This document shows, in pieces, positions 18,933 to 33,457 of a DNA stretch of 34,227 nucleotides. The notes beneath the pieces were generated by a model. The model saw only the letters and a program-made list of their open reading frames with translations. It was not told where the DNA came from and searched no databases. The DNA is from Syntrophorhabdus sp. PtaB.Bin047. GTDB taxonomy: Bacteria > Desulfobacterota > Syntrophorhabdia > Syntrophorhabdales > Syntrophorhabdaceae. Within the stretch, counting starts at the first letter, position 1; each line of letters starts with the position of its first letter. Both the position numbers and the translations under genes were made by a program. Where the stretch lies: NCBI GenBank assembly GCA_002067235.1, contig MVQP01000022.1, positions 1 through 34,227 on the forward strand. The letters are read 5' to 3'.

Positions 18933-20759
18933 GTGACGAGACTAAGATCACTGAGACCAGGGGATTATCATTGCTTTCTCTATGAGAGCGAATCGGAAGC
19001 GAACGCCTTCGGTCTGTCCTTTATCCGTCAGGGACTGGACAAGAGGGAAAAGGTCATCTACTTCGCGGCCGATCACAGCGCTGAGGCTCTCGTCGAGTCT
19101 CTGAGGCAGGACGGGGTCGATGTGGATTCCGTCATGAAGGCCGGTCAACTCCAGGTGGAGAAGAGCGAGCCCGACTCCTGCGAGAAGATAGCGCGGGATA
19201 TGGCCCTCATCGGGTCGGACCCTTTACCCTCCGGAGATACGGCGCATCCCGCATACACCTGCTTGCGCATAGCCGTTGACGACACGCTGCGGTTGAACCA
19301 TACGGGAGAGGAAGGCCTCTGGGTGCCCGCCGCCATCGACCGCCTCGAGGCCATGGTCAGCGTGAAATGTGTCGTGGTCTTCATGTACGGTCTCGACCAG
19401 CTCTCGCCGGACGCCCTGTTCCGTGTCCTGGCGACCTATCCCACTCTCATCATCGGCGATGACATCTACGAGAACTTTCTCTTCCGTGACCCCGTGATGT
19501 CCGGCCAGAAAGGGACGAAGAAGCTTAAAGCGGAGCATCTTCTGGACCTTTTGAAGGACCACAGGAAATTGAAGGACGCCATCAGGAAGGGCGGCCTCGC
19601 ACTCCGGGCGAGCGAGGACAACTACCGGTCCATCTTTGAATCCGCGGCGAACCTGATCGCCATAGTCGATAAGAAGGGCAGGATCGTCGACTGCAATGGA
19701 AAGATAAGGGAGGTGCTCGGTTACGAAAAAGAGGAGGTCATCGGTAGGTCGATAGCCGCCCTCTTTCACCCCGACCACCTGTACCGGGCCTTCGAGATAC
19801 TCAAGGAGGTCGTCAAGAAAGGCTCCTCGTATAACAAGCAGTACCAGATGGTCAAGAAGGACGGGTCGACGGCGTACGTGAGCGTCAACTCCACGCCGCT
19901 CAAGAACGAGAGGGGCAAGATAGCAAGGGTGGTGTCCGTCGTCGAGGATATCACGGAGCGCAAGAGGGTCGAGGAGGCCCTTTTTGAAAGCGAAAGGCGG
20001 TTTCGCCAGCTTGTCGAGATCCTTCCCGATGCTATCCTCACCCTTGCCGACGGACGGATCATATTTGCTAACAGCGCGGCATACAACCTCTTCGGGGTTG
20101 GACATCCGCGAGACCTCATCGGCCGGCGCATGGAGGATTTCCTGGATGCCCCGGGGGCCGAGGCCGTGCGCAAATGTTTCGAGGCCATACAGCAGAACGG
20201 GAAGACGGGCAGAGTCGCCAGGGTCGCCACCGGCCGGGCCGACGGCTCCGTCGTCATCATCGAGTGGAGCGGAATGGCCCTGAATCAAAAGGAGGGCGGC
20301 GGTATCCTCTTCATGGGCAGAGACGTGACGGAGAGTGAAGCGGCCGAGAAGCTCGTGCGCGAATCGGAGGAGCGGTACAGGATAGCTGTCGAGAATTCGA
20401 ACGATGGCGTGGCGATAGTCCGCGGAGAGAACTATGTCTACGTTAACAAAAAGCTGGCGGAGATGTTCGGATACAGGAGTGCCAATGATGTTGTGGGCAA
20501 GAACATATCCGTGACGATCCACCCTGATGACCGAAAGCGCGTCCTCACCATCAACCACATGCGCCAGAGGGGCGAAAAGGTCCCGGACCGGTACGAGTTC
20601 AAAGGGATGCACAGAGACGGGTCCATCATCTTCATAGAGGTCTCGGCGACCCCTGTTGTCTACAACGGCGAAGCGGGATCCCTGGTATACCTTCGGGATA
20701 TTACGGCACGCAAGGAAATGGAAGACACCCTGAGAATGATCGGCAGGATATTCCCCTGA
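18933..20759 (+). CDS. MEDS-PAS-PAS-PAS sensory protein without output domain
   Basis: 608 residues from a GTG start. Residues about 5-170 match the MEDS (DcmR-like) sensory domain: LRPGDYHCFLYESESEANAFGLSFIRQGL and EKVIYFAADHS. Three PAS domains follow (about 228-350, 357-470, 477-600), each closing with a D-I/V-T-E-R/A-K signature. The protein stops at RKEMEDTLRMIGRIFP, exactly where a HisKA, GGDEF or other output domain would normally begin, and no kinase residues are present. The next gene is convergent 15 nt on. It could be a stand-alone sensor that works by protein contact, or a truncated kinase. GGTAGGT upstream may be the ribosome binding site. Confidence 0.85.
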   Translation: MTRLRSLRPGDYHCFLYESESEANAFGLSFIRQGLDKREKVIYFAADHSAEALVESLRQDGVDVDSVMKAGQLQVEKSEPDSCEKIARDMALIGSDPLPSGDTAHPAYTCLRIAVDDTLRLNHTGEEGLWVPAAIDRLEAMVSVKCVVVFMYGLDQLSPDALFRVLATYPTLIIGDDIYENFLFRDPVMSGQKGTKKLKAEHLLDLLKDHRKLKDAIRKGGLALRASEDNYRSIFESAANLIAIVDKKGRIVDCNGKIREVLGYEKEEVIGRSIAALFHPDHLYRAFEILKEVVKKGSSYNKQYQMVKKDGSTAYVSVNSTPLKNERGKIARVVSVVEDITERKRVEEALFESERRFRQLVEILPDAILTLADGRIIFANSAAYNLFGVGHPRDLIGRRMEDFLDAPGAEAVRKCFEAIQQNGKTGRVARVATGRADGSVVIIEWSGMALNQKEGGGILFMGRDVTESEAAEKLVRESEERYRIAVENSNDGVAIVRGENYVYVNKKLAEMFGYRSANDVVGKNISVTIHPDDRKRVLTINHMRQRGEKVPDRYEFKGMHRDGSIIFIEVSATPVVYNGEAGSLVYLRDITARKEMEDTLRMIGRIFP

Positions 20760-25718: not shown

Positions 25719-26203
25719 GCTACCGGGCGCAGGTGATCACGGTGAGCGACAAGGGTTCACGGGGAGAGCGTGTCGACACGAGCGGCCCGGCCGTCAAGAA
25801 CATGCTGGAGAAGGACTTCATCGTGGGTGATGTCATCATTGTGCCCGATGAGGCCGATATCATAGCCGACGCGATAAAAAGGGCCATCGATGAGGAAGGC
25901 GTGGACATGGTCGTCACGACGGGAGGGACGGGCCTGTCCGCGCGCGACGTTACGCCCGAGGCGACCCGTTCGGTCATCGAACGGGATCTTCCCGGTTTCG
26001 CGGAGGTCATGCGGTTGGAAAGCTACAGGATCACCCCCCGCGCCGTCATCTCCCGCGCCGTTTGTGGGATCCGCCGCAAGAGCATCATCATCAATCTTCC
26101 CGGCAGCGAAAAGGCGGCCGTGGAATGTCTCGGCTTCGTTATCGGCGCCATCCCCCATGCCCTGGCCAAGCTTAAGGGTGACGCGGCCGACTGCGGGGTC
26201 TAG
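25715..26203 (+). CDS. Molybdopterin adenylyltransferase-type protein (MogA/MoaB family)
   Basis: 162 residues. Carries the family pattern AQVITVSDKGSRGERVDTSGP at the start, VTTGGTGLSARDVTPEATRSV (about 67-87) and INLPGSEKA near the end. MogA adenylates molybdopterin before metal insertion; MoaB is its close relative, and sequence alone does not separate them. It starts within the MOSC stop (ATGA). No MoeA, MoaD or MoaE is in the window, so the pathway is completed elsewhere. Confidence 0.93.
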   Translation: MSYRAQVITVSDKGSRGERVDTSGPAVKNMLEKDFIVGDVIIVPDEADIIADAIKRAIDEEGVDMVVTTGGTGLSARDVTPEATRSVIERDLPGFAEVMRLESYRITPRAVISRAVCGIRRKSIIINLPGSEKAAVECLGFVIGAIPHALAKLKGDAADCGV

Positions 26204-26269
26204 ATACGTTCCGGGCCCTGACATGCCTGAACCTTGAATTTTTTTCAATATGTAGGTAATCTGTGGGTG

Positions 26270-26390
26270 AAAGTGTGTTACAATTTCATTCGCGGGGCAT
26301 AATAGTGTGATATAAAGAAGTACTGTATTATGTCCGGATGATTTTGTTGGACATTATGATCATACGATATGGCGAGTTTGATCATTTAAT
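26270..26390 (+). promoter_or_regulatory. AT-rich upstream region with paired symmetrical sites
   Basis: Two repeat pairs: ATTATGTCC (26327-26335) faces GGACATTAT (26349-26357), 22 bp centre to centre, and ATGATCAT (26356-26363) recurs as TTGATCAT (26378-26385), also 22 bp apart. GTTACA followed after 17 nt by TAATAG is a weak promoter candidate just before them. This spacing of two helical turns suits a dimeric or tetrameric DNA-binding protein; the recombinase-like gene downstream is one candidate. Confidence 0.4.
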
Positions 26391-26471: not shown

Positions 26472-27515
26472 ATGGCGAACATAGCGTATCTGCTTGTATC
26501 CGTTGAGGGTGAGGCCCCGGAATCTCAGAGGAGCCTTATAGGGGAATATGCCTCTGCGAAGAACCTCCGGATAGACAACTATATCACCGTAGAGCTCCCT
26601 TCCCAGAGAAAGGAGCGCGGTCGCCGGGTGAAGGAACTTCTTGCCGGCGTTAACCGGTGGGATGTCATTGTCGTATCGGACCTTGCGGCACTGGGGGATG
26701 ACATTGCCGATGTCATTGCCGTAGTGGGTGATCTTCTGGAGAGAGGGGTGCGGTTCATCGCGGCGAAGCAGGAGATGGACCTCAATGGTGTCGGGGACAG
26801 CTCCTCGAAGAGCGCCACCGCCCTGTTCGCCATGCTCACCTCGGTGGAGAAGGAGGTTGCTTCCCGGCGTGTCAGAGAAGCCCTCGCGCAAAAGAGGAAA
26901 GAAGGCGTGGTCCTCGGCAGGCCCAGGGGGAGCCTCTCCGCGTCGAAACTGGACGGCAAGAAAGAGCTTATCATCGAATACCTGTCGAAGGGTGTGAGCA
27001 AGGCCTCTCTGGCGCGCATCCTCGAGACGTCACCTACCAACCTCGCGAGCTATCTCAGGACGCGAAACATAGCGGTATCAAAGAAGGACCCGGCGATGAG
27101 GAAGGATGCCTCTCCGAAGAAGGTCGTGGAAAGAGAGGTTCCCCCGGAAACACCGCCGCCCGTCGCGGCACCGGTGCAAGAGGTGCCGGTGGCCCAGTTT
27201 CACGAGGCCACGGAGGTTCTCCTGTGCAGGCAATGCGGCAAGAACATCCACGATCCCAGAACGATCACCTGCGCCGGGGGATATGTCGACTATCCCAACG
27301 GGGAATCTCATCCCCGCGTTCCCTATCCCAGGCACGAAACGGAACGCTGTCCCAAATGCGGTGTCATGCCGGGAGGGTTCCATCACGAGGGATGCTACAT
27401 GGAACGCTGCCCCAGGTGTGGGGAAAGGCTTGTTTCGTGCGGGTGCAGGACCCGGGGCGAGGCGGACGAGAAATCCTCAGGCGAACAGTCCCGGTCCGTG
27501 CGGTACCTGCCCTGA
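26472..27515 (+). CDS. Degenerate serine recombinase-fold protein with C-terminal zinc ribbons
   Basis: 347 residues. Residues 1-150 follow the serine resolvase/invertase catalytic fold (IAYLLVSVEG, VVSDLAALGDDIADV, SVEKEVASRRVREALAQKRKEGVVLGRPRG), then a helix-turn-helix (about 163-200, KASLARILETSPTNLASYLRTR), a proline-rich linker and zinc-ribbon knuckles (CRQC, CPKC, HHEGC, CPRC, CGC). Ser10 is kept, but Arg8 is Leu8, and the D-R-L-G-R motif reads LAALGD, replacing both catalytic arginines; E-R is E-K. It is probably not a recombinase but a DNA-binding protein. The ATG at 26472 with AAGGGATGG upstream is the family-like start; the esterase gene follows by 33 nt. Confidence 0.75.
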   Translation: MANIAYLLVSVEGEAPESQRSLIGEYASAKNLRIDNYITVELPSQRKERGRRVKELLAGVNRWDVIVVSDLAALGDDIADVIAVVGDLLERGVRFIAAKQEMDLNGVGDSSSKSATALFAMLTSVEKEVASRRVREALAQKRKEGVVLGRPRGSLSASKLDGKKELIIEYLSKGVSKASLARILETSPTNLASYLRTRNIAVSKKDPAMRKDASPKKVVEREVPPETPPPVAAPVQEVPVAQFHEATEVLLCRQCGKNIHDPRTITCAGGYVDYPNGESHPRVPYPRHETERCPKCGVMPGGFHHEGCYMERCPRCGERLVSCGCRTRGEADEKSSGEQSRSVRYLP

Positions 27516-29126: not shown

Positions 29127-29329
29127 ACGGAGTCGACGGGCCGGATGGGGCCTTCGCAGGGAGTACGGGAGGCCTGCGCCGTTCCCGGTCAGGCCGTGGC
29201 AGCCGGTGAGGGGATATAGCCCCTATCGGTTCCGTATGACGGTGCTGCTTCCGGAGAGGGCGTGCAAAACGTGGCGGATTGTGGTATCGTGTACTCTGTC
29301 GTGATATCCGGAGGAGAAGGAAAGAGGAA

Positions 29330-30473: not shown

Positions 30474-30655
30474 GACCGCTGGCTAAACCTGTACCGCAAT
30501 TGTGCGATAACCTGATGGAGAGAGGCATAGACCCATCGTGGGAACCGGCGGAGAGAGGGTATGTCTGCCAGGGGCCGTCCAACCTGGATGTTGACTTCTC
30601 CGTGTGTTTGGTCTAAGGTTTGACGAAATCGCCGCCTGTCCCGCGGGACGCAACT

Positions 30656-33457
30656 ATGAACGACACCACGAGAACCCGCCAGGAATTGATCGAAGAGATA
30701 ACTGCACTGAAAAAGAGGATCGCGGACCTGGAACTGTCGGAGGCTGAAGACCGACATACCCGGAAAGTGCTGCAAGGGAGCATGGAGGGGTATCGGGACA
30801 TCTTCGAGAATGCCATGATGGGCATCTTCCAGAGTACGCCCGACGGAAAGTACCTGCGCGCCAATGAGGCCCTGGCTAAGATGTACGGTTACTCCTCCCC
30901 CGATGAACTGATGAGCACCATCACGGACATCGCCGGGCAGCTCTACGTTGACCCCGAGGACCGCAGGCGGTGCACGGAGTATCTCGCGAAAAGGGATATG
31001 ATACACGATCGCGAGATCGAGGTGTACCGCAGGGACGGAAGCAGGATCTGGATCTCCATGAACGCGAGGGTCGTCCGCGGTCCCGACGGTTCCCCCGCCT
31101 ATTTCGAAGGCATTGTCGAGGATATCACGGACCGGCGACGAGCCGATGATGCACTGCGATGGAAGACGGCCCTCCTTGAAGCGCTGGTGAACACGTCCAG
31201 CGACGGGATACTTGTTGTTGACGATGACCAGAGACGACTCGTCACCAATCAGCGGGTCATCGATCTCTGGGACGTTCCGATAAACGTCCTCGATGACGAC
31301 GATGACGCCGCGCTGCTCAACTATGTTGTCGGCCTTGTCGGCGATCCCCACAAGTTCCTTGAGAAGGTCATATATCTTTACGAGCACCCCGACGAAAGGA
31401 GTTGGGATGAGATCGAGTTCAGGAACGGAATGGTCCTCGACCGCTATTCGGCTCCCGTTCTCGGCGAGGACGGGCATCACTATGGGAGGATATGGACATT
31501 CCGGGACATCACGAAGCGCAAGCGGGCCGAGGAGCAGCTGCGGGAGTCTCAAAGGAGGCTGGCGGACATCATCGAGTTCCTCCCCGACGCGACCCTGGCG
31601 ATCGACCGGGCAGGAAAGGTCATAGCCTGGAACAGGGCCATAGAGACCATGACGGGCGTCAGCAAGGAGGATATGCTGGGAAAGGGCGACTATGAGTACG
31701 CGCTGCCCTTTTACGGAACCCGCCGGCCCATCCTTATCAACTTCGTGACCATCTGGGACGACGAGATGGAAAAACAGTATTCCTTCATAAAGAAGGACGG
31801 CGACACCCTCTACACGGAGACAGATGTGCCCTTCGTGCGCGGACAGAAGAGGAACCTTTGGGGGAAGGCGGGACCTCTCTATGACACAAACGGGAAGGTC
31901 GTGGGGGCCATTGAGTCCATCCGCGATATCACGGAGCGGAAGGAAGCGGTGCGGGAACTCTTTGCTGAAAAAGAGAAGATGCGCAGTCTGTCGGAGAACG
32001 CCCCCATCGGCATGGCGCTCATCGACAGCACGGGCAACTTCGTCTATATCAACCCAAGATTCAGGACGATGTTTGGCTACGACCTCGCTGATATCCCGAA
32101 TGGGAGGACGTGGTTCAGAAAGGCATATCCCGACCGGGCGTACAGGCACCGGGTCATACAGGCGTGGCTTGACGACCTCAGGACGGGAAACCTGAGGAAT
32201 CAGGGCATCTACAACGTGGTGTGCAAGGACGGATCGACGAAGGTGATCAGTTTTATCCCGGTGCAGCTCGGCAACGGCGACGTGATCATGGTATGTGAGG
32301 ACATTACCGAACGCAAGAGACTGGAGGCGCAGCTCATCAACGCGCAGAAAATGGAGGCGATCGGCACGCTCTCGGGTGGCATTGCTCATGATTTCAATAA
32401 CATACTCATGGGTGTCCAGGGCTATATATCGCTCATGACGATGGACACAGGCGTGGGCCATCCCCATCACGAGTGGCTCAGGAACATCGAGGAGCTCGTA
32501 AGGAACGCGGCGGACCTGACGGGACAGCTCCTCGGGTTCGCGCGCGGCGGCAAGTACGACGTCAAGCCGTTCAGCATGAACGAGCTTGTCGAGAAGACAT
32601 CCACGATGTTCGGAAGGACAAAGAAGGAGATCGTCATCCGCCACGCGAACCAGAACGATGTCTGGCCCGTCGAGGGAGACCAGGGACAGATAGAGCAGGT
32701 CCTTCTCAACCTCTACCTCAACGCGTGGCAGGCCATGCCCGCCGGCGGGGTCCTCTCCCTGGGGACGAGAAACACCGTTCTCACGGCCGCTCAGGCGGAT
32801 ATCCATTCAGTGGCCCCGGGGAGATACGTGTGTACCTCCATCACGGACAGCGGTGTCGGCATGGACGAGAAGACGAAAGAGAGGATCTTCGAGCCCTTCT
32901 TCACAACGAAGGAACTCGGCAGGGGAACTGGATTGGGGCTCGCCATGGTGTACGGCATCGTAAAGAACCACAACGGATATATCGATGTGGAGAGCGAGCC
33001 CGGCAATGGGTCCACCTTCCGGTTCTGTCTTCCTGCGTCAGGGAAAGACGTTGCCCGTGTCAGGCTCGAGACGGCCGAAACGGTAAGGGGCGCGGGGACG
33101 ATCCTTCTTGTGGATGATGAGCGCGCGGTCCTCACTGTCAGCAAGGCCATGATCGAGTCTCTGGGATACACGGTGTACGCTGTCGGGAAGGGGGAGGAGG
33201 CGATCTCTCTCTACGAAAGGAAGAAGGCTTCCATCGACCTCATCGTCCTCGACATGATCATGCCCGGCCTGTCGGGAGGAGAGACCTTCGACCGCATACG
33301 GGAGGTGGACCCGGAGGCGAGGGTGATCCTCTCCAGCGGCTACAGCCTCAACGAACAGGCGCGCCGCATCATGGAAAAGGGATGCAGGGGCTTCGTCCAG
33401 AAACCCTTCACCATAGCCGACATCTCCCGCAAGCTCCGGGAAGTCCTCCAAACATAA
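30656..33457 (+). CDS. Hybrid sensor histidine kinase with four PAS domains and a receiver domain
   Basis: 933 residues. A short coiled coil (about 4-32) precedes four PAS domains (about 45-160, 168-300, 302-435, 443-558), each closing with an EDIT/RDIT-type signature. The kinase has H-box His578 (GGIAHDFNNIL), an ATPase region with N (LNLYLNAWQAMP), G1 (DSGVGMDE) and G2 (GRGTGLGLAMVYG), and a C-terminal receiver with Asp866 (LIVLDMIMPG) and the conserved Lys (VQKPFT). No transmembrane span, so cytoplasmic. The ATG at 30656 is preferred to the TTG at 30620, which lacks proper ribosome-binding spacing; neither is strong. The PAS ligands and the target are unknown; no response regulator gene is near. 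Confidence 0.93.
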   Translation: MNDTTRTRQELIEEITALKKRIADLELSEAEDRHTRKVLQGSMEGYRDIFENAMMGIFQSTPDGKYLRANEALAKMYGYSSPDELMSTITDIAGQLYVDPEDRRRCTEYLAKRDMIHDREIEVYRRDGSRIWISMNARVVRGPDGSPAYFEGIVEDITDRRRADDALRWKTALLEALVNTSSDGILVVDDDQRRLVTNQRVIDLWDVPINVLDDDDDAALLNYVVGLVGDPHKFLEKVIYLYEHPDERSWDEIEFRNGMVLDRYSAPVLGEDGHHYGRIWTFRDITKRKRAEEQLRESQRRLADIIEFLPDATLAIDRAGKVIAWNRAIETMTGVSKEDMLGKGDYEYALPFYGTRRPILINFVTIWDDEMEKQYSFIKKDGDTLYTETDVPFVRGQKRNLWGKAGPLYDTNGKVVGAIESIRDITERKEAVRELFAEKEKMRSLSENAPIGMALIDSTGNFVYINPRFRTMFGYDLADIPNGRTWFRKAYPDRAYRHRVIQAWLDDLRTGNLRNQGIYNVVCKDGSTKVISFIPVQLGNGDVIMVCEDITERKRLEAQLINAQKMEAIGTLSGGIAHDFNNILMGVQGYISLMTMDTGVGHPHHEWLRNIEELVRNAADLTGQLLGFARGGKYDVKPFSMNELVEKTSTMFGRTKKEIVIRHANQNDVWPVEGDQGQIEQVLLNLYLNAWQAMPAGGVLSLGTRNTVLTAAQADIHSVAPGRYVCTSITDSGVGMDEKTKERIFEPFFTTKELGRGTGLGLAMVYGIVKNHNGYIDVESEPGNGSTFRFCLPASGKDVARVRLETAETVRGAGTILLVDDERAVLTVSKAMIESLGYTVYAVGKGEEAISLYERKKASIDLIVLDMIMPGLSGGETFDRIREVDPEARVILSSGYSLNEQARRIMEKGCRGFVQKPFTIADISRKLREVLQT

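Follow-up and report, generated by a model that had tools for sequence, protein, structure and literature searches.

The window analysed here, 34,227 nucleotides of contig MVQP01000022.1 from Syntrophorhabdus sp. PtaB.Bin047, carries moaA, moaC, a gene for a MOSC protein and mogA, in that order, followed by a gene that fuses a serine recombinase lacking most of its catalytic arginines to a cysteine- and histidine-rich tail, and then by a carboxylesterase gene. mogA ends at 26203, and 268 bases separate it from the ATG of the fused gene. Although an alternative, longer frame opens at TTG 26430, the residues it would add are poorly conserved among homologues, and the ATG at 26472 is therefore the likely start codon. 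The features discussed below are:

26250..26290, plus strand: conserved block GTAATCTGTGGGTGA..TACAAT, a probable promoter with a -10-like element at 26279-26284, giving a leader of some 180 nt
26356..26385, no strand assigned: inverted repeat ATGATCA-N16-TGATCAT, a candidate operator
26472..27515, plus strand: whole gene, 347 residues from the ATG; an invertase, in all probability catalytically dead, fused to a Cys/His tail
26472..26891, plus strand: recombinase core and long E helix, residues 1-140; Arg8 is Leu8, Arg68 is Ala73, Arg71 is Asp76 and Arg125 is Lys127, with Ser10 and Arg49 kept
26892..26939, plus strand: arm between E helix and helix-turn-helix, LGRPRGS, nearly invariant in the alignment
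26940..27074, plus strand: helix-turn-helix (HTH), residues 157-201, seen as helices in the model and under the strongest constraint
27075..27206, plus strand: variable Pro/Ala-rich linker, residues 202-245, of low pLDDT
27207..27452, plus strand: Cys/His tail, residues 246-327, with 12 invariant Cys/His and stand-alone relatives in other genera

On either side of the region lie two large PAS proteins (18933-20759 and 30620-33457), one with a MEDS and several PAS domains and one a hybrid histidine kinase with a receiver domain.

Both sequence and structure place the N-terminal half in the serine recombinase superfamily, with the Resolvase N-terminal fold. Pfam Resolvase (PF00239) matches residues 4-146 (9.9e-15; 55.3 bits against a cut-off of 23.3). 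Structure prediction and superposition, proposed as a check by an earlier, sequence-only reading of this DNA, gave an AlphaFold2 model that superposes on gamma-delta resolvase and matches Tn3 resolvase and other serine recombinases (Foldseek, VIA-align; Z 10-12). Block-mean pLDDT in this full-length model is 81-94 over residues 1-140 and 82-86 over 161-200; the linker and almost the whole tail fall below 50. A hinge between core and HTH probably explains why rmsd is large when full-length structures are paired. The fold is thus that of the Tn3/gamma-delta resolvase, TnpR (Z about 10-12). TnpR, however, is an active recombinase, whereas the window protein has lost Arg8, Arg68, Arg71 and Arg125 and gained the Cys/His tail; no res-like array was seen at its gene.

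The residue assignments come from two alignments. In the HMMER alignment, DLAALGD lies opposite KLDRLGR of gamma-delta, which sets Ala73 on Arg68 and Asp76 on Arg71. Alignment with three intact relatives (YLRVS, SRLGR, ER) sets Leu8 on Arg8, Ser10 on Ser10 and Lys127 on Arg125. In the window protein, the catalytic Arg8, Arg68 and Arg71 of an active small serine recombinase are therefore Leu8, Ala73 and Asp76, while Ser10, Tyr6, Gln19 and Arg49 are all kept. The sequence-only reading had named the same substitutions (Leu8, LAALGD in place of the arginine motif, and E-K for E-R), and the alignments confirm each of them. Its broader statement, that the catalytic arginines are lost, holds for Arg8, Arg68, Arg71 and Arg125 but not for Arg49, which is probably the counterpart of gamma-delta Arg45 and is invariant in all nine homologues from the genus; L031 has it too. 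This last assignment is less sure, as this loop exceeds that of gamma-delta by one residue and the intact relative L014 has Asn there.

Searches recovered full-length fused homologues from the genus of the window alone, as nine copies in eight genomes, all of them intact reading frames. One genome (G015) holds a second, diverged copy (L039), 55% identical to the window protein and in a different context. Across the nine, position 8 reads LLLFLLLLF, position 10 SSSSYSTTL, position 73 (the Arg68 counterpart) AAAVCRRRL, position 76 (the Arg71 counterpart) DDDNNHQHS and position 127 (the Arg125 counterpart) KRKKKKSSK. Arg8 and Arg71 are thus lost in every copy, which is what the search for homologues with the same losses, also proposed earlier, had been after; position 73 retains Arg in three. 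Because the losses are common to nine homologues, they are not sequencing errors. Ser10, which the sequence-only reading had described as kept, is so in the window protein but not in the family, where it persists in five copies and is Tyr, Thr or Leu in the other four. Ser10 consequently has no weight as a retained catalytic residue, and its presence here but not across the family makes it more likely that the nucleophile chemistry has been lost.

The same reading had derived the protein from a resolvase. The best NCBIfam match is the master DNA invertase Mpi model NF009949, over residues 4-201 at 115.7 bits, short of its curated cut-off of 272 bits; the intact relatives reach 188-190 bits on this model, likewise under the cut-off. 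The ancestor looks like an Mpi-type invertase rather than a Tn3 resolvase. With the Mpi family the window protein has in common its domain order, and the HTH with a GRPKGS arm is common to the intact relatives matching the same model; it differs in lacking the active-site arginines, in scoring far below 272 bits and in carrying an extra tail of about 140 residues. Two of the intact relatives (L014 and L022; YLRVS...SRLGR...LERD) belong to another genus of the same family and are 40% identical; inspection of inverted repeats near them revealed no clear invertible segment. A tree built from the recombinase part separates the nine dead copies from four intact ones (support 92/98), and 90% of bootstrap trees recover the group. 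Because its outer branches are long, the nearest intact relative is unsure.

Constraint is distributed unevenly along the protein. Pairwise dN/dS (Nei-Gojobori, own script), rough in distant pairs where dS is saturated, was 0.00-0.09 for the HTH, 0.05-0.21 for the tail, 0.11-0.25 for the core and 0.21-1.16 for the linker. Invariant positions among the nine homologues number 28 of 45 in the HTH, 47 of 82 in the tail and 22 of 120 in the core. The HTH with its GRP(R/K)GS arm, which we take to be the counterpart of the minor-groove arm known from resolvase structures, is the most constrained stretch of the recombinase half. The HTH is therefore kept, as had been claimed from the sequence, both as helices in the model and under selection, and this is what a regulator would be expected to retain. 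By these values the core, too, is under purifying selection, yet not for an active site; the fold has accordingly been maintained without one. Core constraint could also reflect some other activity.

The tail contains 10 Cys and 2 His (C252, C255, C267, C293, C296, H304, H305, C308, C313, C316, C323, C325), all invariant in the nine homologues, and this invariance suggests that it binds zinc. It might accommodate as many as three metal ions, and would be suited to sensing or contacts. The several added zinc knuckles of the sequence-only reading were not recovered: no CCHC knuckle (CX2CX4HX4C) occurs in the tail, which is a single 10-Cys/2-His module. Searches of Pfam, PHROGs and NCBIfam gave nothing above cut-off or convincing, the Pfam zinc-ribbon matches being sub-cut-off, and the tail modelled alone has a mean pLDDT of 58.5, too low for a fold search. 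Relatives of the tail do, however, occur in other genera of the same family as stand-alone proteins of about 80-90 residues. The gene is therefore a fusion, and its putative zinc part, judged by these relatives, is a captured stand-alone module.

We propose, at a probability of about 0.62, that the product is a domesticated, catalytically dead Mpi-type invertase acting as a DNA-bound dimeric regulator, with the tail as a sensor or contact module. An Mpi-type small serine invertase would have lost Arg8 and Arg71, and hence strand exchange, before the genus diversified, and a flexible linker would have joined the dead invertase to a small stand-alone Cys/His protein. The resulting sequence-specific DNA-binding protein would dimerise via the retained E helix and contact DNA via the HTH and the GRP(R/K)GS arm, while the metal-bound tail would sense metal or redox state or recruit a partner. 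A regulatory or scaffolding role is our best inference. A more specific version, in which these proteins form a genus-specific transcription factor family built from a killed DNA invertase and a metal- or redox-sensing Cys/His module, the dimer/synapsis interface being reused to switch DNA-bound states, is tentative and somewhat doubtful.

An emphasis on the tail alone, as the working part behaving like the stand-alone small protein while the recombinase half provides only a DNA anchor, overlaps with this proposal. Conservation of the tail comes close to that of the HTH, and the module is found by itself, in several copies in some genomes. The constraint on the HTH nevertheless indicates a specific DNA site, and the stand-alone protein itself matches no family over cut-off in Pfam, PHROGs or NCBIfam; we consider this emphasis unlikely to be the right one.

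Instead of regulating transcription, the protein might assist an active serine recombinase as a dead accessory subunit, for example bound to the accessory sites of another site-specific system. Resolvase domains carrying S10A remain useful at accessory sites II and III (PMC9943657), and the genome does have one intact serine recombinase, on contig C169. That protein is just 24% identical to the window protein and is encoded on a different contig. Moreover, six of the nine dead copies occupy one common chromosomal position, defined by the moa linkage, and no recombinase gene was recognised adjoining the dead gene in the neighbourhoods of the copies. Such a subunit therefore appears quite improbable.

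Neighbourhoods also bear on the regulator proposal. An operon with the moa genes was considered as a fixed link and rejected, the copies in G017 and G018 lying elsewhere, near glutamine synthetase and ammonium-transporter-like genes (names from sequence reading), with mogA on another contig. No neighbour of the fused gene is constant across the genus. In G011, mogA precedes the homologue of the reading frame found at 29279 in the window, and nothing remains of the fused gene, which is thus dispensable there; in G014, mogA lies at a contig end, making the absence of the fused gene uninformative.

Loss of recombinase activity is well supported: nine homologues lack the same residues, position 10 varies freely, and within the N-terminal half conservation peaks at the DNA-binding end. 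DNA cleavage might still persist through a rearranged active site built from Ser10, Arg49 and other basic residues, and the window copy does keep these two along with Tyr6 and Gln19. We regard this as highly improbable, given a family in which Ser10 is replaced in four of nine copies and Arg8 and Arg71 are absent from all, and an alignment with intact relatives that offers no substitute arginine for either. That the gene is a decaying, functionless remnant of a mobile element is scarcely credible: it is missing from at least one genus member (G011, with another gene after mogA), but the nine frames are intact, dN/dS is well below 1, the twelve ligands are invariant and the continued purifying selection on the core argues against decay.

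If the protein is indeed a DNA-bound regulator, the region upstream of its own gene offers a possible target. The GTAATCTGTGGGTGA..TACAAT block is common to six homologues, and a pattern search of the genome placed its core at a single site, upstream of the fused gene. In comparison with L035 and L036, positions 26256-26284 (GTAATCTGTGGGTGA...TACAAT) belong to the most conserved segments: identity in windows of 30 bases reaches up to 77-87%, whereas most of the remainder stays at about 50-60%. A scan of the upstream region found no sigma-70 consensus pair, standard -35 box or terminator, and Rfam had no match to the leader that this probable promoter would imply. Some 65-75 bases downstream of the likely transcription start lies the inverted repeat ATGATCA-N16-TGATCAT, a single site in the genome by pattern search. 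L033 has the repeat unchanged and L034 has it nearly so (N15), at the point where the comparison with L034 shows its highest conservation (80-83%); in L032 both arms differ at some bases, and L036 has TTATGATCG-N30-CGATCATAA in the same place. As 91 of 500 shuffles yield a comparable repeat, it is not significant alone, and the evidence for it is its conservation. The 28-base span of the TGATCA arms is presumably close to resolvase site I in size, a likeness spotted after the fact. The repeat might conceivably be an operator for autoregulation, a weak suggestion.

Known systems make the proposed conversion plausible. In Tn3, TnpR acts as a repressor of tnpA and tnpR by binding res (PMC7157771). 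With recombination and repression already joined in resolvases, and S10A subunits still useful, losing catalysis while keeping DNA binding would be a short step. Serine recombinases that have lost activity are known, but few have been described. One predicted to be catalytically inactive, vaccinia F16 (named in PMC11980589), is likewise a dead member of the superfamily, though viral, in unrelated use and compared here by description only. In the literature searched, in which few subscription journals were covered, we found neither bacterial dead serine recombinases acting as regulators nor one joined to a metal-binding-type module. Large serine integrases with a zinc ribbon also combine a serine recombinase core with a zinc-binding C-terminal part. 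Their core is active, however, and the ribbon belongs to the DNA-binding region, whereas the tail described here forms a module of its own, to which no Pfam family scores over cut-off. The nine homologues further suggest the sequence in which residues were lost: Arg8 and Arg71 are missing from every copy, Arg68 and Ser10 only from some, in different lineages. This makes the conversion of a recombinase into a DNA-binding protein testable.

The profile of the tail module matched in eight of 395 genomes drawn from the phylum, four from the same family (including that of the window) and four more distant, the latter with small proteins or with half-modules joined to other sequence. A scan of IMG/VR found no relative of the tail, a plasmid search returned one remote match to the stand-alone protein, in Salinibaculum, and a phage search matched the recombinase half only (26-28% identical). 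In two of the distant phylum genomes (L065, L066), the second half-module, CPVCHAA-G--H--GC--EICPWCGGQL--C-C, sits on a different N-terminal sequence. In G028, an 86-residue stand-alone relative overlaps an AAA_28 ATPase gene by one base (L075, 3954-5338), and G029 carries six dispersed copies of the stand-alone protein (L016, L023, L027, L028, L029 and L030).
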